A stretch of 64,000 nucleotides of DNA from Candidatus Binatia bacterium (GTDB lineage: Bacteria; Desulfobacterota; Binatia; HRBIN30): NCBI GenBank assembly GCA_026415395.1, contig JAOAHD010000017.1, forward strand, positions 147,001 through 211,000, written 5' to 3'. Positions 4,103 through 42,627 of the stretch are shown piece after piece (the stretch's first letter is position 1; every line of letters begins with the position of its first letter). The notes below the pieces were generated by a model. That model worked only from the letters and a program-made list of their open reading frames with translations, was not told where the DNA came from and ran no database searches. The position numbers and the translations under genes are program-made.

Positions 4103-4285
4103 GGGCCTCCTCCTTCCGGGGCGTAAACTCCTGCAGCAACTGTGCCCTACGGCAGGGACGCTCATCTTATTGCGGGTCTCATGCGCTCTTTACGAACCTA
4201 GCCACTCCACCTGCTTCCTGGTTTCAGCTTTGGAAATTCGCCCAGCTTGCATGACGAGCAGTATCTTCGTTAACCGGCGGCCGCT
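4103..4285. promoter_or_regulatory. Divergent intergenic region between DUF1302 and ThDP-enzyme operons
   Basis: These 183 bases separate two outward-facing transcription units and must hold both promoters. The only clear signal is the purine-rich Shine-Dalgarno of the left gene just after 4102. I could not pick a convincing -35/-10 pair for either direction, nor an obvious operator palindrome. Confidence 0.4.
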
Positions 4286-6055
4286 ATGGCGGAACAAGTC
4301 ACAGGCGGTTCTTTGATCGCGCGCATGCTCCGTGCCGAAGGGGTGGATGTGTTTTTCGGTATTGTCGACGGAACGTACACCCAGCTCTTTGCTCACTGTG
4401 TCGAGCAAGGAATGAAGATGTACTCTCCGCGGCACGAGGCAGTGGCCGCCCACATGGCCGGGGCGTACGCAAGACTCACGGGCCGCTTAGGTGTGTGCAT
4501 CGCAAGTAACGGCCCCGGTGTAGCAAACATGCTGCCCGGGGTGGCCGTAGAGAACGGGGAGGGGAACCGCGTCCTCTTGCTCACCAGTTGCCGGCGCACC
4601 GGCATCGCATACCCCGACCGAGGCGGGACTTACCAGTGCTTCGACCACGTGGCGGTGATTCGAGGCATGTCCAAGTGGTCGCAAACTGTTGCATCGCCGG
4701 CGCGTCTTGCCGAACTTCTCCGGGAGGCGCTACGTCACTGCTTTACAGGGCGCGCAGGAGTGGTGCATCTGGACGTGCCCGAGAACATCATCAACGGCTT
4801 TTGTGACGATCAGCCAATTTGGCCTCCTTCTGCATACCGGGCAACTGCCCCACTGCAACCTCAATCCGATCTCCTCGATCAGGCTGCACAATGGCTGATG
4901 AAGGCGCGCTTGCCCCTCGTGCACGCTGGTGCCGGGGTGATCTACGCGCAGGCCTGGCGGGAGCTGGAGGAACTTCTCGCACTCCTCCATTCCCCTCTGA
5001 CGACTTCGTGGAGTGCCCGCGGGGTGATTTCTGAGGACAATGACCTCGTTTGGCCCATGATTCACATTGATGCTTGCACCGAGCTGCGCAACACTGCAGA
5101 CCTCGTCCTCTGCATCGGCTCAGAAGTCGGAGAAACTGACTGGTGGGGAAAACCTCCTTATTGGGCTCCTCGTAGCCGCCAGCGGTGGATTCAAATTGAT
5201 CTTGATCCAGCCCGGATCGGCCGAACCCGACCCGTCGATTTGGGGATTGTCGGAGATGCCAAAGAGGCTCTGGCGGGCCTTCTCGCACGGCTGCGGCCGT
5301 TGGCCGGGCAGCTCGATCGCGAGCAGCGGGCAGGTATCCTCAAGCAACTCGAGGAAAAGAAACGTGCGGAGCGAGCCCAACTGGACCAGGCACTCGAAAA
5401 CCGCAGCGCACCGATGGTGACCGCACACGTACCGGTTGCTTGCCAGAAAGTACTTGGGCCGGATGCGATTGTGGTGCTTGACGGGGGCAACACCGCCGTG
5501 TGGGGTCACTTTTACACCGTCGCCCACCGGCCAAATAGCTTACTCAGCACTGCTCACTTCGGGCATCTCGGCGCAGGGGTGGGTCAGGCAATCGGAGCGG
5601 CGGTCGCGTATCCCGATCGACCGGTGTACTGCATCATCGGAGATGGGGCGATGGGCTACAACGTGCAAGAGATCGAAACCGCGGTACGCTACGGACTTCG
5701 TCCGATCTACGTCGTATGCAGCGACCGCCAGTGGGGCATGGTGAAAATTAACCAAATGATCGCCTTGCAAAGCTTTCGTCAACAACTACCCCACGCGCTC
5801 GGCCCCGACGGCACGCGTACCATCGAGACCGACTTCGTCGAGACCGACTGGGCCGCGGTCGCCCAAGCCATGGGCGCCTATGGAGAGAGAGTGGCGCATC
5901 CAAACGAGCTGGAATCTGCTTTGCAGCGTGCTCGAGAAAGTGGACGCTGCTCGGTGATTCATGTCGACGTCGACCCGGTGGCGCATTTGTTTGCCCCGGG
6001 CTTGCAAGCGTTCAAAGACATGCACCAGGAACCCGCGGGAACCTACGACGGGTGA
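4286..6055 (+). CDS. Thiamine diphosphate-dependent enzyme, acetolactate synthase/benzoylformate decarboxylase-like
   Basis: At 589 residues this has the three-domain layout of the acetolactate synthase superfamily. The N-terminal domain carries PRHEAVAAHMA, whose Glu activates ThDP. The middle domain is nucleotide-binding-like. The C-terminal domain has GDGAMGYNVQEIETA, the start of the ThDP/Mg motif. The usual NN that closes that motif reads CSDRQWG here (Ser-Asp), an uncommon substitution at a Mg ligand. Members decarboxylate or ligate 2-oxo acids; the substrate cannot be told, and no small regulatory subunit follows, so a biosynthetic IlvB role is less likely. It is followed 16 bases later by an epimerase-like gene, probably in one operon. 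Confidence 0.8.
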   Translation: MAEQVTGGSLIARMLRAEGVDVFFGIVDGTYTQLFAHCVEQGMKMYSPRHEAVAAHMAGAYARLTGRLGVCIASNGPGVANMLPGVAVENGEGNRVLLLTSCRRTGIAYPDRGGTYQCFDHVAVIRGMSKWSQTVASPARLAELLREALRHCFTGRAGVVHLDVPENIINGFCDDQPIWPPSAYRATAPLQPQSDLLDQAAQWLMKARLPLVHAGAGVIYAQAWRELEELLALLHSPLTTSWSARGVISEDNDLVWPMIHIDACTELRNTADLVLCIGSEVGETDWWGKPPYWAPRSRQRWIQIDLDPARIGRTRPVDLGIVGDAKEALAGLLARLRPLAGQLDREQRAGILKQLEEKKRAERAQLDQALENRSAPMVTAHVPVACQKVLGPDAIVVLDGGNTAVWGHFYTVAHRPNSLLSTAHFGHLGAGVGQAIGAAVAYPDRPVYCIIGDGAMGYNVQEIETAVRYGLRPIYVVCSDRQWGMVKINQMIALQSFRQQLPHALGPDGTRTIETDFVETDWAAVAQAMGAYGERVAHPNELESALQRARESGRCSVIHVDVDPVAHLFAPGLQAFKDMHQEPAGTYDG

Positions 6056-33321: not shown

Positions 33322-34725
33322 CTATCGGATAGGGCGGGCCTTCCAAAAATAATTGTGATTCTGCCCACCTTCGTGAATGCGCCGAAAGGTGAGCCTGACA
33401 CGTCGGCCCACATCAACCTCACCCTCGGTAAAGTCAGTCACTTGGAGGTAAATTCGCCCACCTCCGTCTAACTCCACCACAGCCATCGGCAGAGGGTGCT
33501 CGACATTCGCGATGAGGTGATCCACCGTGTACGTGAACACCGTCCCGGTCAGGCCTAAGCGCAACTCGTCCATCGGGCCGGGCCGCCCACAGGAAATGCA
33601 CACCTGCGCCAGTGGGTACTGCACGGTGGCGCAGTGACGGCAGCGACTGCCGTGCAACCGCACGTTCTGCGCAAGTTCCTTGAATTCCAGCACGTTCGTA
33701 ATTGTTTCCTCGACCTCCTCCCTCCGCATGAGGCCGCGGTACTTGAGGTATTTCTGGTAAGACCGGAGCGGCTGCTTGGCGGCAAGCCAATCCTTCCACG
33801 AAGGGCCTGCTCGGCCATCACCAACCAAGGCGGTCGTACGCAGCAAAACGGCGTCTGCCCCCTCGCCAAAGGCGGCCACCACGATCCATTGGTTGGGCTC
33901 TGCCTCATCCAACACTCCGCCCAAGGCCAACAAACTTTCCGCTGCACCGACGGAGCCAATTGCCGCGCTAGCCGTGGGGGCAAGCTGACGGGTGGGGTCA
34001 AAGCTCAGCTTCCGAGCCACATCGACCGCAGCGCGGGGTTCCGGAGCGTGCAGGACAAGCCTTGCCACCTGGCTCGGCTGCAAATTGTGAGCGCTGAGGA
34101 GGCGATGGATCGCTTCTGCAACATCGCGAACATAGCCGTAGGTTTGCGAGAACTTGCCAGGATAAGCAGACACGAACGGCGAAGCGTCCGTTCGCCAGAA
34201 GTACGTAAACTCCTCGCTGATGCTTGCGCTGCCCACGATCTCCGCCGCTACATTCTCTCGTGCGACCAAGACTGCAGCCGCTCCATCTCCCAGCAACCCC
34301 TCCCACTCCGACTCGGGCTCTGCAAGCCTCGCTTCGGCCGCACTGACCAAGCACGACTGGATACGCCCACTCCTCACGGCCGCATCCGCCGCTAACAGGG
34401 CTTGCAAGCCCGCACGGGCTGAACCCCCGAAGTCGGAACAAAAGGTTTCCCGGGGGAGGTCGCAAACTGTGGCACCAAACGCGGACAACTGCTTCTCGAA
34501 ATAAGGAGGGCTCGTTGAAGCGAAAAACCAGCCTTCCGGCAGGTGTGGGCAGGACTCTAGGCAAATCAGCGCTGCCTCCAATGCAAGCGTGAACGCGTCT
34601 TCATCATAGTTTGCAACGGCAATTTCGCCCGCGGAGGGAGACTCCTTGCCCCAGGCACGCGCAATTTCAGCGCGGCTGAGGCGCAGGCGAGGCACATAGG
34701 CACTAAACTTCGCAATCCCGACCAT
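33322..34725 (-). CDS. HMG-CoA synthase-like protein fused to a DUF35 zinc-ribbon/OB domain
   Basis: A 467-residue fusion. Residues 1 to about 330 have the thiolase-like fold of archaeal-type HMG-CoA synthase (KFSAYVPRLRLSR at the start). Where active synthases have the Cys of a CxGGT motif, this protein has Asp98 in SDFGGSARAG; a Cys sits two residues earlier (Cys96). The C-terminal part is DUF35: a zinc ribbon (SRCRHCATVQYPLAQVCISCG) then an OB fold. The gene sits directly upstream of a thiolase gene, recalling the archaeal thiolase/HMGCS/DUF35 complex that channels intermediates. It overlaps the end of the FG-GAP gene by 23 bases. Confidence 0.8.
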   Translation of the reverse strand: MVGIAKFSAYVPRLRLSRAEIARAWGKESPSAGEIAVANYDEDAFTLALEAALICLESCPHLPEGWFFASTSPPYFEKQLSAFGATVCDLPRETFCSDFGGSARAGLQALLAADAAVRSGRIQSCLVSAAEARLAEPESEWEGLLGDGAAAVLVARENVAAEIVGSASISEEFTYFWRTDASPFVSAYPGKFSQTYGYVRDVAEAIHRLLSAHNLQPSQVARLVLHAPEPRAAVDVARKLSFDPTRQLAPTASAAIGSVGAAESLLALGGVLDEAEPNQWIVVAAFGEGADAVLLRTTALVGDGRAGPSWKDWLAAKQPLRSYQKYLKYRGLMRREEVEETITNVLEFKELAQNVRLHGSRCRHCATVQYPLAQVCISCGRPGPMDELRLGLTGTVFTYTVDHLIANVEHPLPMAVVELDGGGRIYLQVTDFTEGEVDVGRRVRLTFRRIHEGGQNHNYFWKARPIR

Positions 34726-37700
34726 CCCTTTTGCCCCTCGAAAACTTCTTTCGCATGTACAGCGACGCAAGCCACAGGAGGGCAAGCAAAAGCCATGGCT
34801 CCCCACTCTCCCGCGAACCGCCAACAACGGCACACCCTTTGCCGCTGACACACACGCCCCCAGCAAAACAGCGCGGGGTCGGGGTATCGGTGGGTCCAGG
34901 GGTTGAAGTGGGCACTCGCGTACGTGTAGGCGTCAAGGTGGGTGTTTCGGTTGGCGTCTCCGTCGGGGTCGGCGTGTCAGTCGGCGTAGGGGTTGTGGTG
35001 GGAGTTACTGTCCTGGTCCGCGTTGGTGTTGCAGTCATCGTAGGTGTGGGAGGCGGATTACTACTCAGTAGCATCGTGATGAGGCCGCCCGTACCCACCC
35101 CCGCGACGTCTGGGCGGCCGTCTCCGTCGTAGTCGCCAGTAGCAATCAGCCGTACACCAGCGCCCATCGAACAGCGGCCGCTCACAGTGTCAGCCATGTT
35201 GCAGAAGTTGGTCGTCTCCTCCAGGGACTGCCCGGTACCCAAGAACAACGCCAGGAGCGCTGAGTCCGCGCTGATTACGGCAACATCCAGCAAACCATCG
35301 CGATTCCAGTCAGCAAACCCCAAGTCGCTCGGCTGCGACAACGGTCGGAGAAAGTTAGTCGCCTGAGGCACGCCGAGCCTGTACAAACTGCCAGATGGAA
35401 TTGTTCCGAAAAGGACAACCAGCGTCCCGGAGGCACCCCCTCCTGCCACGATGACATCCAGGACACCGTCTCCATCCAGGTCTTCGATTTCCAGTGCGGA
35501 CGGCGCGATGGTTGCCTGACGGACATTAGCCAGATCGAAGCTTGGGTACCCTTGGTCATCGACGCCACCCTGCGTGTAGAGTGCCACGGTTCCCGTAGCA
35601 CGCGAGACCGTGAAGAGGTCCAGCCGCCCGTCTTGGTTTGCGTCTGCGACTCGGAGGCCGGTCACAGGGCCATCGGCACTCAGCCTACTTCCGCCAACGA
35701 ACGCGGTTTCCCGACGGTACAACACAGTGACGCGGTTATCATTGCCGCTGCCAACCACAACATCGTTACGACCATCAGCATCAATGTCGGCGATGCGAAT
35801 AACCTGCGGGTCGTTCCCGGCAGCGACCGGCTCCCCCGTAGCCACGAACTCCCCACGCCCTTGATTCACCAATACGACAACCCCGACGTCTGTGGCGACC
35901 GCTATATCGGGGAGCAAGTTCCCATCTACATCGCCGATGTCGATGCCGCGGGGGGCGCCCGGTAGGTTAACGCCACTGCGCACCATTCCATTGCGGCAGT
36001 CCCCATTGGCGAAGCGCTCTCGCGCTACGAGCCCTATCACGACCTGGTTACCGCTGACATCTGCAAGAGCTAGGTCAGTGCTGCCATCGCGATTTAGGTC
36101 ACCCTGGGCCCTCGCGACAAAGTTACCCGCAAACGGCAGCTCGCAAACCAAGAAGAGTTCTGCCGTGGCAAAGCGGCAAGGCCAAAGAGCCATGATCAAG
36201 AGTCCGCCGCTCGCAGCCCACAGCCGAGTGCGACCCAAGTACGATCGCTTTTTTTGAAGTCCGCGGCTTCGTCTTCGCAGAAACCAGCTAGCCGGAAGGA
36301 AGGTTGCAAGTGGCAGCGCATTCGAGCCTGTCGCAACGTTCGGGGCGACCGAGCACCCACCGGAGGAGAGATTCAAAGTCCCCGGTTTAAATGTTTTGGT
36401 AGCCGTGGCTGTGGGTAACGGGGTAGACGACCTGGTCCGTGTCGGAGTAGCGGTCGCGGTAGCTGTAAAAGAGGGGGTCGGCGTTCCCGTCTCGGTCGGG
36501 GAAGCCGTTACTGTGGGCGTGGCACTTTCTGTCGGGGTGGGCGTCGGACGAGGCGTGGGGGTTGCAGGCGGCCGACTACTTACCAAAACGCTGACGCTGC
36601 CCCTCAAGCCGACAACCACGTCCGCAATGCCATCTCCGTCGATGTCCCCGACCGCCAACGACAAGGGCTGACTGCCTCTCAAATCGACCGGCAGCGTCGG
36701 CGCAGCAAACGCACCGTCCGGTCGGGCCATGAAGAAAACGACACTATCGCTACTTTGATCTGCAATGACTAAGTCGACAGAACCATCGCGATTGAAATCC
36801 GCCGACGCCACTGCCACAGGCAGCGATGCGAGCTGCCCACCGGCCGGCGGAACCACAAGGCGCTGCCGCACCCGGTAGCTGACCCCTCCACCGCTCGGCC
36901 TCTGCCCCGAGATGATCAAGATGGCGCCCTCGGAACCACCGGTTGCCACTGCCAAGTCCGGCACGTCGTCGCTGGGATCGAACCAATCAGACCAAAGTGC
37001 CAATGGCGCTCCGGGCAAAGTAAAAGGCGTTAGCGGCCTCATCCCACCGGTGCCCGGAGGGCACACCTGGGAACCAGGCGTTGTAGACCCGACGTTTTGC
37101 TGTTGAAACACAACAAAGTCCGCTGTGGATTGGCTGCTAATACCGAGGTCTGCCCGGCCATCAACGTCCAAGTCCCGCGCTAAAACGAAATCCGGGCTCC
37201 GGCCGACACCCACCGTACAAGGAGCCATGTAGCTCCGCCGGTCAGTGACCGAGCGTGTTATGACAACAACTTCGTTACTACCTTGGCTCGGGCGTCCAGC
37301 CACGAGGTCCAATGCTCCATCGCGATTCACATCGACAACCTGGAGACTTCCAAAGGATGTCCCTTCCTCCAATGGACCGCCGGGGGCCGGTTGAAAGTTG
37401 CCCGCACCGTCGCCGTAAAAGACCCGAATGCCATCCGCTCCCGCTACTGCCAAGTCCAGCCGACCGTCGCTATCCAGGTCGGCAATGCGTACAGCGCTCG
37501 GCCCAGGCAAACCGATCTCCAGCACGTTCGACTGGACTCCCAAGACATCGCATGCTGTCGGGGCCCCGGGACGCGTGCGGGTAAACAGCACCAAAATGCG
37601 GCCGCCCTCTTGATCCGCGGCGACAACGTCGGGGCTCCCGTTTCGATCCAAGTCGCCGATTCCTACGGCAGCGATGGCACCACTCACGCGCGGCTGGCCG

Positions 37701-39097
37701 GCTTCGTTCGTGTTACAAACAGTGAACGGCGCAGTGGGAATCGGAGTGGCCGTCGGGCTTGCTGTGGGAGTAGCGGTGTCCACGGGCAGTGGGGTGCCAG
37801 TGGGAGTCGGGGTGTCTGCACTCGGGGTCCCCGAAGTCACAGTGGGAGTTGGGGTTTCTACTCCTGCCCCGGAACCACTGGTGTTCAGGAAAACCCTGAG
37901 ACCATCGCCCTCTTGAGTGAGCGCAAGCACGTCGGCTTTACGGTCGCCGTTGATGTCGACCGCCGCCACCGTTGCCAAGTTTCCGGGCAAGCCATTCGTC
38001 TGCTTTTGAAAGCCGTTTTCGTCCGGCAAAATTGGTGGCGGAAACGGTGGACCAGGGTCGTAGCAGAGGTCGCTCGGCTGCCGACAAAGCAGGTTAATTC
38101 CGATTCCTCCAGTGGCGTTGCTCACAACCAGATCCAGTTTGCCATCGCCATCTAAATCTCCTGCTGCGAGGCCCGTGGAGTCCACTTCCACAAAATCGGT
38201 GTTACCGGTGGTGAAGCCACCCGAGCCATCACTGATCATCAAAGTAACCTGGGCATCGACATCGACTCCGGTTACAACCGCGATGTCATCGACGTTGGCG
38301 TCGCCACCGAAATCCCCCACCACGAGGCCTCCGGGCCGTTCGCCCACACTAAACACTCGCGCTGCTTCAAAGGTTCCGTTCCCGCGGCCCAGCAGGACAG
38401 CAACGCGGTTGCCCCCACGGCTACTGACTGCAACGTCTAGCACGTTGTCCTGATTAAAGTAACCAACGCCTAAGGCGTAGTTCCCCTGAGTCCCAGGCCC
38501 CGTCGAAACGCTAGCGGGTGAGAAATCGACGAAGCGTCCATTGCCCTGCCCTTTCAGGAAATGAATTGTCGCTCCACTAAGCACAGCGAGGTCAAGGATT
38601 CTGTCGCCGTCGAGGTCCGCCGCCACAAGATCGACAGGCGCTGGATCGACGGGAAACCCGTCCAAGTAATTTTCGTCGGCCTCAAAAATCAGGTCGCTAC
38701 CCTGCAGTAAAACACTCACCGAATTGGCCAACGTGTTGGCGGTCGCGATGTCCACCCTCCGGTCACGGTTAAAGTCCCCGAGCACGACAGCCACGGGTCC
38801 GTCGGCAGTATCGGCCGAGTCAAACGGTTCAAAGGTTCCGCTTCCTTCATTCAGGAAGATGCTGACCTGACTCGCATCAGGCTGGGCGACCACGATATCT
38901 GACAACTGGTCTTCGTTAAGGTCGCCCACGGCAAACGCCCGCGGCCCCGGATTTTCCCCTGCCGAAACATCAACGGGAGGTGCCGCACGAAACGAGAGCC
39001 TGGCAGTCGCTGAAGTCGGCCCAACAAGCCACGCCAAAATCATTATGGGGATGAACCGGCAAATAATCCCGCTTCGTTTCATCAGCAGAGGGTACAT
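34703..39097 (-). CDS. Giant secreted FG-GAP/VCBS-repeat protein, apparently two proteins fused in frame
   Basis: An uninterrupted 1464-residue frame. It opens with a signal peptide (MKRSGIICRFIPIMILAWLVGPTSA; start 39097 or 39082, no clear ribosome site). The body is a run of FG-GAP/VCBS repeats with Ca-binding DxNxDGxxD loops such as DLDGDRILD and DINGDRKAD, split by Thr/Pro linkers. At 914-943 it has a full C-terminal sorting signal: Gly-Cys-Ser, a hydrophobic stretch, then RRR. At once a second signal peptide-like segment follows (LWAASGGLLIMALWPCRFATA, about 958-978), then more repeats and a second sorting-like tail (GKGCAVVGG, hydrophobic helix, RKKFSRGK). Probably two adjacent genes joined by loss of a stop or a frameshift. 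Confidence 0.72.
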   Translation of the reverse strand: MYPLLMKRSGIICRFIPIMILAWLVGPTSATARLSFRAAPPVDVSAGENPGPRAFAVGDLNEDQLSDIVVAQPDASQVSIFLNEGSGTFEPFDSADTADGPVAVVLGDFNRDRRVDIATANTLANSVSVLLQGSDLIFEADENYLDGFPVDPAPVDLVAADLDGDRILDLAVLSGATIHFLKGQGNGRFVDFSPASVSTGPGTQGNYALGVGYFNQDNVLDVAVSSRGGNRVAVLLGRGNGTFEAARVFSVGERPGGLVVGDFGGDANVDDIAVVTGVDVDAQVTLMISDGSGGFTTGNTDFVEVDSTGLAAGDLDGDGKLDLVVSNATGGIGINLLCRQPSDLCYDPGPPFPPPILPDENGFQKQTNGLPGNLATVAAVDINGDRKADVLALTQEGDGLRVFLNTSGSGAGVETPTPTVTSGTPSADTPTPTGTPLPVDTATPTASPTATPIPTAPFTVCNTNEAGQPRVSGAIAAVGIGDLDRNGSPDVVAADQEGGRILVLFTRTRPGAPTACDVLGVQSNVLEIGLPGPSAVRIADLDSDGRLDLAVAGADGIRVFYGDGAGNFQPAPGGPLEEGTSFGSLQVVDVNRDGALDLVAGRPSQGSNEVVVITRSVTDRRSYMAPCTVGVGRSPDFVLARDLDVDGRADLGISSQSTADFVVFQQQNVGSTTPGSQVCPPGTGGMRPLTPFTLPGAPLALWSDWFDPSDDVPDLAVATGGSEGAILIISGQRPSGGGVSYRVRQRLVVPPAGGQLASLPVAVASADFNRDGSVDLVIADQSSDSVVFFMARPDGAFAAPTLPVDLRGSQPLSLAVGDIDGDGIADVVVGLRGSVSVLVSSRPPATPTPRPTPTPTESATPTVTASPTETGTPTPSFTATATATPTRTRSSTPLPTATATKTFKPGTLNLSSGGCSVAPNVATGSNALPLATFLPASWFLRRRSRGLQKKRSYLGRTRLWAASGGLLIMALWPCRFATAELFLVCELPFAGNFVARAQGDLNRDGSTDLALADVSGNQVVIGLVARERFANGDCRNGMVRSGVNLPGAPRGIDIGDVDGNLLPDIAVATDVGVVVLVNQGRGEFVATGEPVAAGNDPQVIRIADIDADGRNDVVVGSGNDNRVTVLYRRETAFVGGSRLSADGPVTGLRVADANQDGRLDLFTVSRATGTVALYTQGGVDDQGYPSFDLANVRQATIAPSALEIEDLDGDGVLDVIVAGGGASGTLVVLFGTIPSGSLYRLGVPQATNFLRPLSQPSDLGFADWNRDGLLDVAVISADSALLALFLGTGQSLEETTNFCNMADTVSGRCSMGAGVRLIATGDYDGDGRPDVAGVGTGGLITMLLSSNPPPTPTMTATPTRTRTVTPTTTPTPTDTPTPTETPTETPTLTPTRTRVPTSTPGPTDTPTPRCFAGGVCVSGKGCAVVGGSRESGEPWLLLALLWLASLYMRKKFSRGKRDGRDCEV
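34880..35050 (-). repeat. Low-complexity DNA encoding a Thr/Pro linker
   Basis: A biased tract encoding a TPTxTPT-type linker ahead of the final sorting tail of the FG-GAP protein. Such linkers probably span the cell surface layer. The opposite strand reads as Val/Gly-rich false frames. Confidence 0.75.
36390..36560 (-). repeat. Low-complexity DNA encoding the central Thr/Pro linker
   Basis: The second Thr/Pro-rich tract of the same gene, directly ahead of the internal Gly-Cys sorting motif. Its composition is close to that of the C-terminal tract, so slippage or recombination between the two could have joined or duplicated modules. Confidence 0.7.
37740..37860 (-). repeat. Low-complexity DNA encoding a third Thr/Pro linker
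   Basis: A Thr/Pro-rich stretch separating the first and second blocks of FG-GAP repeats in the N-terminal half of the same protein. Confidence 0.7.
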
Positions 39098-39227: not shown

Positions 39228-41164
<1,937 letters not shown>

Positions 41165-41220
41165 GGCATACCTCCTCAAGCGTCCGAACTCGCTGGGCTC
41201 AGCAGAAAAAGCCCGCCCGC

Positions 41221-41248
41221 AAGCTAACTGGTTCACGGAAACTTTCAA
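41221..41248 (-). promoter_or_regulatory. Candidate promoter for groES-groEL
   Basis: On the minus strand TTGAAA (41248-41243, within CTTGAAAG) is 16 bases from TAGCTT (41226-41221). The -35 overlaps the end of dnaA. CTTGAAA also resembles the -35 of heat-shock sigma promoters, but no matching CCCCAT-type -10 is present. Confidence 0.35.
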
Positions 41249-42627
41249 GACCGCTGCATTGCTCTTTGCTCGCTTTGTCCTGGCAGAAGGCTTCTCTCCA
41301 ACGCGGCGACCATTGTCGCCCACTCGGGGTCCTGCTGGCAGCGGCGCTCCGCGGCACGGATGGCGTAGAGTACGCTCGTATGGTCCCGGCCCCCGAATTC
41401 GCTCGCGATGCGCGACAAGGACACTCGACCCAGCGATTTGCACAAATACATGGCAATCTGCCGTGCTTGCGAGACTCTTTTCTCTCGACCATGACCCACA
41501 AGTTCGCTGGCTGTGAGGCCAAAGTGTTCCGCGACTGCGTCTCGAATCGAGGCAACACTGATTTGCCGCCTGACGGGTTCGATCCGGACAGGGCCGAGCA
41601 GCCGTTCCACTAGATCCACGCTTGCAGGTTGTTGCATCATCTCCATGTAGGCCGTCACCCGATTGAGCCCGCCCTCGAGCTCGCGGACACTCGGACCGCA
41701 ACGGGAGACAATCGCTTGAAGCACAATTTCGGGGAGTTCATGCCCCCGCCGCTCCAGCTTTCGCCGCAAGATTTCCAACCGCATCTCCTCCGTGGGCGCC
41801 TGCACATCAGTGATGAGGCCGCTCTCGAATCGGCTGCGTAACCGGGACTCAAGGCGCGCTACCGCACTCGGATGTTGATCGCAGGTCAGCACCACTTGTT
41901 TTTGGGCCCCGATCAGCCATTCGAAGGTGTGGAAAAATTCTTCCTGCGTCCTCTCCTTCCCGGCGAGGAACTGCACATCGTCCAAAATCAACACGTCGAG
42001 CTCACGGAACCGCTCTCGGAACTGAGCCATTCTGTCCGTGCGGAGCGCTTGGATCATCATGTTTGTGAAAAGTTCCGCTGAGAGACAGGCGACCCGTTTG
42101 TTCTTGCTCGCCCGCAGACTCTCATGCCCTATGGCGTTCACCAAATGCGTCTTCCCGAGCCCAACACCTCCCCAGACAAATAGCGGGTTGAACCTACGTC
42201 CGGGTTCCTGGGCGACTGCGCGTGCTGCCTTGGCAGCAAGTTCGTTTGTTGGCCCGACAACAAAGGAGTCGAAGTCGTAGCCATCGATCAAGCGGCCGAC
42301 CCTTGGAAGCGGTGCCGCTGCGCGCATTCGTAACTGCGTACGAGGCTTGCTACGCGACGGTTCGTCGTGCGCAACAACCTCGCCTTCGCACCGCACGCCT
42401 ATAACGACTTGCGGTTTTCGCTCATCCCCGAGAGCCTGCTTCAACGCATCTTCGATCGTTCGTAAAAGGTGGCGGGTCACCCATTCGCGGTGGAATCGGC
42501 TCGGCATCTCGAGGACAATGACGTCTCCTTTTCGAGACCAGGAAATCGGCTCGATCCACATTGTGAAGTTGCGCTCCCCTACGGCACGGCGTAGGTGCGA
42601 CAACGCGATCATCAACTCCGCATCCAT
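41245..42627 (-). CDS. dnaA: Chromosomal replication initiator DnaA
   Basis: The 460-residue protein has all DnaA parts: an N-terminal domain I ([11 protein letters not shown]), a linker, the AAA+ domain with Walker A GGVGLGKT (153-160) and Walker [11 protein letters not shown] (211-220), and domain IV ending in [12 protein letters not shown], the DnaA-box recognition motif. It opens DNA at oriC. dnaN, recF and gyrB are not adjacent; instead a VKOR-DsbA gene lies upstream and groES follows 80 bases downstream. GGAGGG is 10 bases before the ATG. It could be the sole DnaA or one of two. Confidence 0.95.

Follow-up and report, generated by a model that had tools for sequence, protein, structure and literature searches.

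Results

The window analyzed here is a 64,000-nucleotide stretch of Candidatus Binatia bacterium (GenBank assembly GCA_026415395.1, contig JAOAHD010000017.1, positions 147,001 to 211,000). It contains a single minus-strand reading frame of 1464 aa, beginning at ATG, in which 2 secreted FG-GAP proteins, A and B, follow one another directly (Table 1). A has a signal peptide (SP1), two propellers, a Thr/Pro stalk and a Cys/hydrophobic/Arg tail; B has its own signal peptide (SP2), one propeller, a stalk and a tail. At the base composition of the frame (60.5% GC, 0.032 stops per codon), an open frame of this length has a chance probability of about 2e-21. Chance is also excluded by the same junction in three further genomes. 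A Pfam search found 11 FG-GAP_3 stretches (PF13517, 7.8e-86), and integrin alpha and CRTAC1 are among the relatives. The observation in the preliminary description, that one frame holds two complete secreted proteins end to end, is thus confirmed, although its placement of the second signal at residues 958-978 differs from ours by a few residues.

Table 1. Features of the fused A-B frame (positions within the 64,000-nucleotide window)
Position	Strand	Feature	Basis
34703..39097	-	Fused A-B open reading frame, 1464 aa	Pfam; same fusion at loci L021, L022 and L047 of other genomes
39002..39097	-	N-terminal signal peptide of A (SP1), residues 1-32, ...TSATA|R	AxA rule, by eye
36383..39001	-	Mature A: FG-GAP propeller 1, Thr/Pro linker, FG-GAP propeller 2, Thr/Pro stalk	Pfam; AF2 model from the second propeller onward
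36260..36382	-	Internal tripartite sorting tail: GTLNLSSGGC(915)SV..., hydrophobic 927-940, then RRRSR	Tail HMM 52.1 bits, E 3.4e-13, own row included in the model; Cys invariant in 23/23 tails
36353-36355	-	Cys915 of the internal tail	
36278-36319	-	Hydrophobic residues 927-940, followed by RRR 941-943	
36218..36277	-	Short basic loop RRRSRGLQKKRSYLGRTRLW between the two hydrophobic segments, predicted cytoplasmic	9 K/R, 0 D/E
36249..36255	-	A7 run (A AAA AAG in the reading frame), possible slippage site	Not conserved in relatives
36161..36238	-	Internal signal peptide of B (SP2), residues 954-979, predicted signal peptidase I site ATA|ELF	AxA-type site kept in all four fused genomes
35051..36160	-	Mature B: complete FG-GAP beta-propeller (predicted), starting right after the AxA site	AF2 pLDDT 93.5, pTM 0.91
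34856..35050	-	B stalk, Thr/Pro-rich, ending in CFAGG	Translation
34706..34855	-	C-terminal tripartite sorting tail of B (VCVSGKGCAVV... hydrophobic ...RKKFSRGKR)	Tail HMM 52.4 bits, own row included in the model; JDVT-CTERM (NF033191) 16.5 bits, below its 27-bit cutoff

The same uninterrupted fusion, with both mid-protein signals, was found in two other species of the genus (G001 and G002; ~57-60% identity) and in a fourth genome, G007, that belongs to another family. The preliminary description had named, as one outcome that would refute it, a conserved fusion lacking the second signal; this is not what was found, since the relatives keep the second signal and its AxA-type site. GGC, and with it the tail Cys, is kept in the internal tail of all four fused copies, and a small-x-Ala site is kept at the end of SP2 (ATA, AGA, ATA and SFA), while the hydrophobic cores diverge. 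Synonymous sites are near-saturated among the three congeneric species, and the internal tail and SP2 diverge fast (pN/pS 0.56-0.65). Each of the four fusions has an internal n-region, a hydrophobic core and an AxA-type site at the joint, as judged by rule rather than with a trained predictor, and the basic loops have almost no acidic residue. However, the hydrophobic segment of the internal tail in the source genome is short (14 residues, two prolines, peak Kyte-Doolittle 1.5 against 2.5-2.8 in the other fused A-B copies), so that it could be a poor stop-transfer. In a longer AF2 model, the stalk-tail-SP2 stretch is a low-confidence region between two propellers and the second signal is not drawn as a helix, but this model rests on a 4-row alignment.

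Other genomes of the order, in other genera, carry A and B as separate neighboring genes, often abutting or overlapping, and where the flanks could be checked they lie at the same locus, in the context dnaA-(groESL)-A-B-HMGCS-thiolase. Some of these split pairs are only a stop away from fusion (locus L051). As to the number of fusion events, the HMGCS+thiolase tree allows a single origin (98/98), but the A and B trees need two changes and G007 is in another family; two fusions, or an ancestral fusion with re-splitting, are likelier. The same tail-plus-signal joint also occurs in four further unrelated gene pairs. For one such pair the source genome keeps a stop (L099/L194) where G001 has a fusion (L190), and in the fused paralogues of G002 the junction is under purifying selection (omega 0.24 for the pair C169/C202, 0.33-0.49 for the others).

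The tails have the tripartite layout of MYXO-CTERM tags, with a Cys invariant in 23/23 and an Arg/Lys cluster after the hydrophobic part, but the tails of the frame fall below the cutoff of the curated model (TIGR03901): the internal tail in the source genome scores 11 bits against a cutoff of 20. Of the 23 tails, 12 match at E<=1, the best at 1.8e-5. The tail HMM used here, which was built from 23 rows that include both tails of the frame, scores them at E about 3e-13. The preliminary description noted that no sortase-like protease is in the window, which is correct but incomplete, since a borderline myxosortase-family gene lies elsewhere in the source genome (G000:C16:10072-10374). It scores 100.5 bits against the 100-bit cutoff of Mrt_core (NF040914) in a genome search and 99.0 bits in a whole-protein scan. 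The EExxxR and HxxxN motifs given in PMC11980579 are visible in its translation (GLSEEFFFRAY and YHGFSNIL). Across 148 genomes of the class, Mrt_core matches of 90 bits or more are in 14 of 15 genomes of the order plus one other, and tails are in 15 of 15 and in 3 of 130 others; those three (L127-L129) look like false hits to ordinary multispanning membrane proteins. A search for rhombosortase (TIGR03902) yielded only a generic rhomboid, at 20.8 bits against a cutoff of 84. A type II secretion secretin, GspD, is encoded (569.9 bits).

Discussion

The best reading of this locus, and one we hold with reasonable though not full confidence, is that the frame encodes a natural bacterial polyprotein made by fusion of two tandem paralogous surface-protein genes. 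The sequences themselves establish the uninterrupted frame, its conservation in the genus and presence in a second family, the retention of both mid-protein signals, and the separate genes in other relatives; in contrast, everything that concerns processing, including cleavage by either protease, lipidation and surface location, is inferred from sequence alone. In this view, SP1 would start Sec export of A, and the hydrophobic segment of the internal tail would stop transfer and span the inner membrane out-to-in, leaving the Arg-rich loop in the cytoplasm. SP2 would then re-initiate export in-to-out, so that B is also delivered outside. Signal peptidase I would cut after ATA979, freeing B and leaving the tail of A as a near-terminal membrane hairpin. 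Finally, the myxosortase-family protease would cut near Cys915 of A and the Cys of the tail of B, probably after lipidation, and both propeller proteins would be anchored at the surface, with the type II secretin serving the outer-membrane step. From this perspective, tail plus signal peptide acts as a cleavable joint, and the stop codon between tandem surface genes became dispensable.

The interpretation in the preliminary description is partly supported. Of the three alternatives it offered, assembly error is rejected, two genes with a lost stop fits the probable origin, and unusual polyprotein is the best description of the product. Its statement that a sorting signal followed by a signal peptide should not work as one protein is not supported, since the topology is self-consistent, the architecture recurs in five gene pairs, and internal sorting signals are reported to be processed (PMC7157517, experimental; PMC11980579, proposed).

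The rival that survives best, and that can be entertained only tentatively, shares this processing mechanism and differs only about selection: stop loss between tandem surface genes may be a neutral accident, tolerated because processing still separates the products. Fusions do occur piecemeal in several pairs, and some split pairs need only lose a stop. Moreover, by composition the chance of an open 20-codon joint in four genomes is 7%, so openness alone is weak evidence for selection. Against this, the A-B fusion persists across a genus with near-saturated synonymous divergence. A second possibility, which we consider unlikely, is that the chain is exported but remains uncut, the internal tail and SP2 staying as a transmembrane hairpin that holds two sets of propeller domains on the outer face of the inner membrane. 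The topology would be the same, the long stalks would fit display, and the fast divergence of the internal tail and SP2 is in its favor. However, the retained AxA-type site and GGC, and the purifying selection on the G002 junctions, are marks that matter mainly if the protein is cut, though with few genomes the argument is limited.

Less likely still is the notion that these are overlapping genes in practice, with B mostly made from its own start and the missing stop merely adding B to a fraction of A chains. Weak in-frame starts, TTG954 in the source genome, GTG987 in G001 and ATG827 in G002, would each give a plausible signal peptide, so that B might also be made separately, and split relatives show coupled overlapping starts, several with good SD pairing. 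But these starts have no better SD pairing than background (-1.8, -0.8 and -2.9 kcal/mol against background means of -3.1 to -3.8), they are not conserved in position, and G007 has no in-frame ATG or GTG in the junction at all; any ribosome that finishes A must read into B. A programmed frameshift at A AAA AAG was set aside because the run is not conserved in the relatives. An assembly or base-calling error at the A7 run, which lies exactly at the joint and after which the +1 frame would soon end, is refuted for the architecture by three other genome assemblies whose different junction DNA lacks the run, even if a base difference in this one genome could still exist.

A broader possibility, about as likely as not, is that in one order of Binatia a sorting tail joined to a signal peptide is a general, evolutionarily reusable cleavable joint. 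Unrelated tandem surface-protein genes would have repeatedly fused into polyproteins that signal peptidase I and a myxosortase-type protease resolve into separately anchored proteins, giving fixed stoichiometry, as in viral glycoprotein polyproteins. Cellular polyproteins resolved by signal peptidase are rare in bacteria, and a search of the literature available to us for bacterial internal-signal polyproteins returned nothing useful, nor did one for fbcH. The recurrence of the joint in five unrelated gene pairs offers a natural test of whether myxosortase-type proteases accept internal tags, and of how stop codons between tandem surface genes can be lost. It also recommends caution to annotators, since such frames are neither assembly errors nor simple multidomain proteins.

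Internal sorting tags arising from gene fusion are already known, in the literature we could read, from two single examples; what differs here is the signal peptide that follows the tag and the recurrence of the arrangement. In HVO_0405 of Haloferax volcanii, a substrate of the archaeosortase ArtA, ArtA-dependent cleavage was shown experimentally (PMC7157517). That system is archaeal, has a PGF-type signal and an unrelated protease, and is described as strain-specific. A second signal peptide is not known to follow its tag, whereas here the tag is Cys-type, a signal peptide follows, and five unrelated pairs show it. MXAN_5598 of Myxococcus xanthus is bacterial and has an internal Cys/TM/Arg tag attributed to fusion of two genes, with processing by myxosortase proposed (PMC11980579); it is a single case, and its second half is an outer-membrane barrel with OmpA domains. 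Surface sorting by MYXO-CTERM and the myxosortase MrtX (PMC11980579) shares the tail with invariant Cys, hydrophobic helix and Arg cluster, the CPBP-family protease and type II secretion, but the tails of our frame fall below the MYXO-CTERM cutoff, the candidate protease lies at the edge of the family-core cutoff, and the lineage is Binatia, not Myxococcota. Finally, in the Bradyrhizobium fbcH cytochrome b/c1 precursor, one bacterial gene likewise gives two proteins, separated at an internal signal sequence by signal peptidase; these are respiratory membrane proteins, and no sorting tail is known to precede the internal signal.

Results

The minus-strand frame is a single ORF of 1464 aa with 11 FG-GAP_3 stretches. 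From the 5′ end, it encodes a signal peptide, two propeller regions with a Thr/Pro linker between them, a Thr/Pro stalk, and a tail (GTLNLSSGGCSV...) in which a Cys is followed by a hydrophobic stretch and then by RRRSR; these parts make up protein A. Directly after come a basic loop and then a second signal-peptide-like segment, one propeller, a stalk, and a second Cys/hydrophobic/basic tail; the parts from the second signal on make up protein B. The observation of the preliminary description, that one frame holds two secreted FG-GAP proteins end to end, thus holds. A structural model of mature B is a complete beta-propeller (pLDDT 93.5, pTM 0.91); its sequence relatives in the PDB include integrin alpha and CRTAC1, and Foldseek lists many propellers. 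A model running from the second A propeller through B gives two separate propellers, joined by about 140 low-confidence residues that hold the stalk, the tail, and the second signal.

Locations of the features in the window and elsewhere in the same genome (G000)
Feature	Nucleotide positions	Strand	Residues
Fused A-B frame	34703-39097	minus	1-1464
Signal peptide 1			1-32
Cys of the internal tail			915
Hydrophobic stretch of the internal tail			927-940
End of the second signal (ATA)			979
Start of modelled mature B (E)			980
A7 run (A AAA AAG heptamer) at the A/B joint	36249-36255		
dnaA, groES, and groEL, just upstream of the A-B frame	39228-42627		
Borderline myxosortase-family gene	G000:C16:10072-10374		
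Tail-bearing gene and same-frame downstream gene, one stop codon between them	G000:C20:1-12000 (L194), near 4226-5659	minus	

An assembly error does not account for this arrangement. A scan of genome contigs returned 2 relatives over nearly the whole length, L021, a Candidatus Binatia MAG (1490 aa, uninterrupted), and L022, bacterium HR30 (1342 aa, with its 5′ part cut by the contig end), and both carry the tail and then the second signal. A third case, G007, a genome in another family of the same order, is an 1849-codon stop-to-stop frame with ...GGCRIS...FFLLFPALLSWLRRAVGSR / IFLPILLLCSLAGSSFA / QGLPRYVAC.... The A7 homopolymer lies exactly at the joint and could slip in this species only, but it is absent in the relatives and so does not explain the architecture.

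In 9 other genomes of the order, A and B are separate neighboring genes, often abutting or overlapping by a few bases at the stop/start. Where the stretches examined were long enough, the surroundings are the same: dnaA (which recurs next to A in several other genomes of the order), in some groES-groEL, A, B, an HMG-CoA-synthase-like/OB protein, and a thiolase, these names being our reading of the sequences. The A tree and the B tree both require 2 changes between split and fused, but the tree of the 2 downstream enzymes groups the fused genomes together (98/98). Hence, one or two origins cannot be distinguished from these trees, although two, or an ancestral fusion with later splits, fits A, B, and the family assignment better.

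Two Rce1-like genes exist in the genome, neither of them in the window. One scores 100.5 bits against a 100-bit cutoff for the myxosortase core, or 99.0 as a whole protein, so that its formal membership is borderline; EEFFFR and HGFSN can be read in its sequence. Over 148 genomes of the class, matches of 90 bits or more are confined to 14 of the 15 genomes of this order and 1 other, so that strong members of the family are almost confined to this order within the class, matching the spread of the tails. A 43-position tail model, built from tails of this order, finds tails in 15 of 15 genomes of the order and in 3 of 130 others, and those 3 look like ordinary multispanning membrane proteins rather than tails. 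The genome also has a type II secretion secretin (569.9 bits). By the strict cutoffs, its own tails are not MYXO-CTERM (A tail, 11 versus 20 bits) nor JDVT-CTERM (B tail, 16.5 versus 27 bits); they work like them, as far as layout shows.

The joint recurs. Of the tails that could be placed, about 75 are at the C-terminus, and the true internal ones are each followed by a hydrophobic signal-like segment. Besides A-B, there are 4 further unrelated gene pairs in which an internal sorting tail and such a segment lie in one frame: in genome G008 (contig 30), a DUF5122 propeller protein joined to a short stalk protein, with a second tail at its end; in G001 (contig 7), a tail-bearing gene joined to a subtilase-like start; in G002 (contigs 169, 202, and 18), a beta-helix-like protein joined to a protein with ELWxSDGT repeats, in 3 paralogues of which the third has a shortened first part; and in G004 (contig 191), a 2095-codon frame. 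This census is incomplete, since at most 50 candidates per genome were scored in the class search, and each of these extra fusions rests on one genome. For the G001 pair, our own genome keeps one stop codon between the same 2 genes, and the downstream frames in both genomes look truncated and may be decayed. The G002 paralogues on contigs 169 and 202 have dS about 0.3 and omega 0.24 in the first protein, 0.24 across the joint, and 0.36 in the second, as expected if the entire frame is used, but in the G002 copies the AxA site is less clear.

Discussion

The order of signals is topologically sound: an export signal, an outside domain, a stop-transfer helix running out-to-in with Arg on the inside, then an export signal running in-to-out, and another outside domain. 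The interpretation in the preliminary description, that a sorting signal followed by a signal peptide should not work as one protein and might reflect an assembly error, two genes with a lost stop, or an unusual polyprotein, is only partly supported. In all 4 A-B fusions, the loop between the hydrophobic segments is basic and lacks acidic residues, the Gly-Gly-Cys is kept, and the second signal ends in small-x-Ala, although the hydrophobic parts are otherwise divergent (pN/pS 0.56-0.65 at the joint against 0.15-0.45 in bodies and stalks, with synonymous sites near saturation). Signal peptidase I is thus expected to cut after the ATA that ends the second signal, and the tail would then be a near-terminal membrane hairpin that a sorting protease could treat as usual. 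While the frame and its signals are read directly from the sequences, cleavage by the protease, lipidation, and surface anchoring are inferences from the MYXO-CTERM work (PMC11980579), where lipidation is itself a proposal.

ALTERNATIVES. The fusion may be selected or merely tolerated, since an open joint by itself is not improbable (7% for four 20-codon joints by composition). On present evidence, an uncut two-anchor protein cannot be excluded. Nor can separate initiation of B be excluded in the genus, though the candidate starts are weak and not conserved, and G007 has neither ATG nor GTG in frame in the joint.

Two precedents for internal sorting tags arising from gene fusion were found in the literature examined: HVO_0405, cut by archaeosortase in Haloferax (PMC7157517), and MXAN_5598, for which processing by myxosortase is proposed (PMC11980579). 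Internal tags of this origin are therefore already known, and what the present case adds is a signal peptide right behind the tag and recurrence across unrelated gene pairs in one bacterial order.
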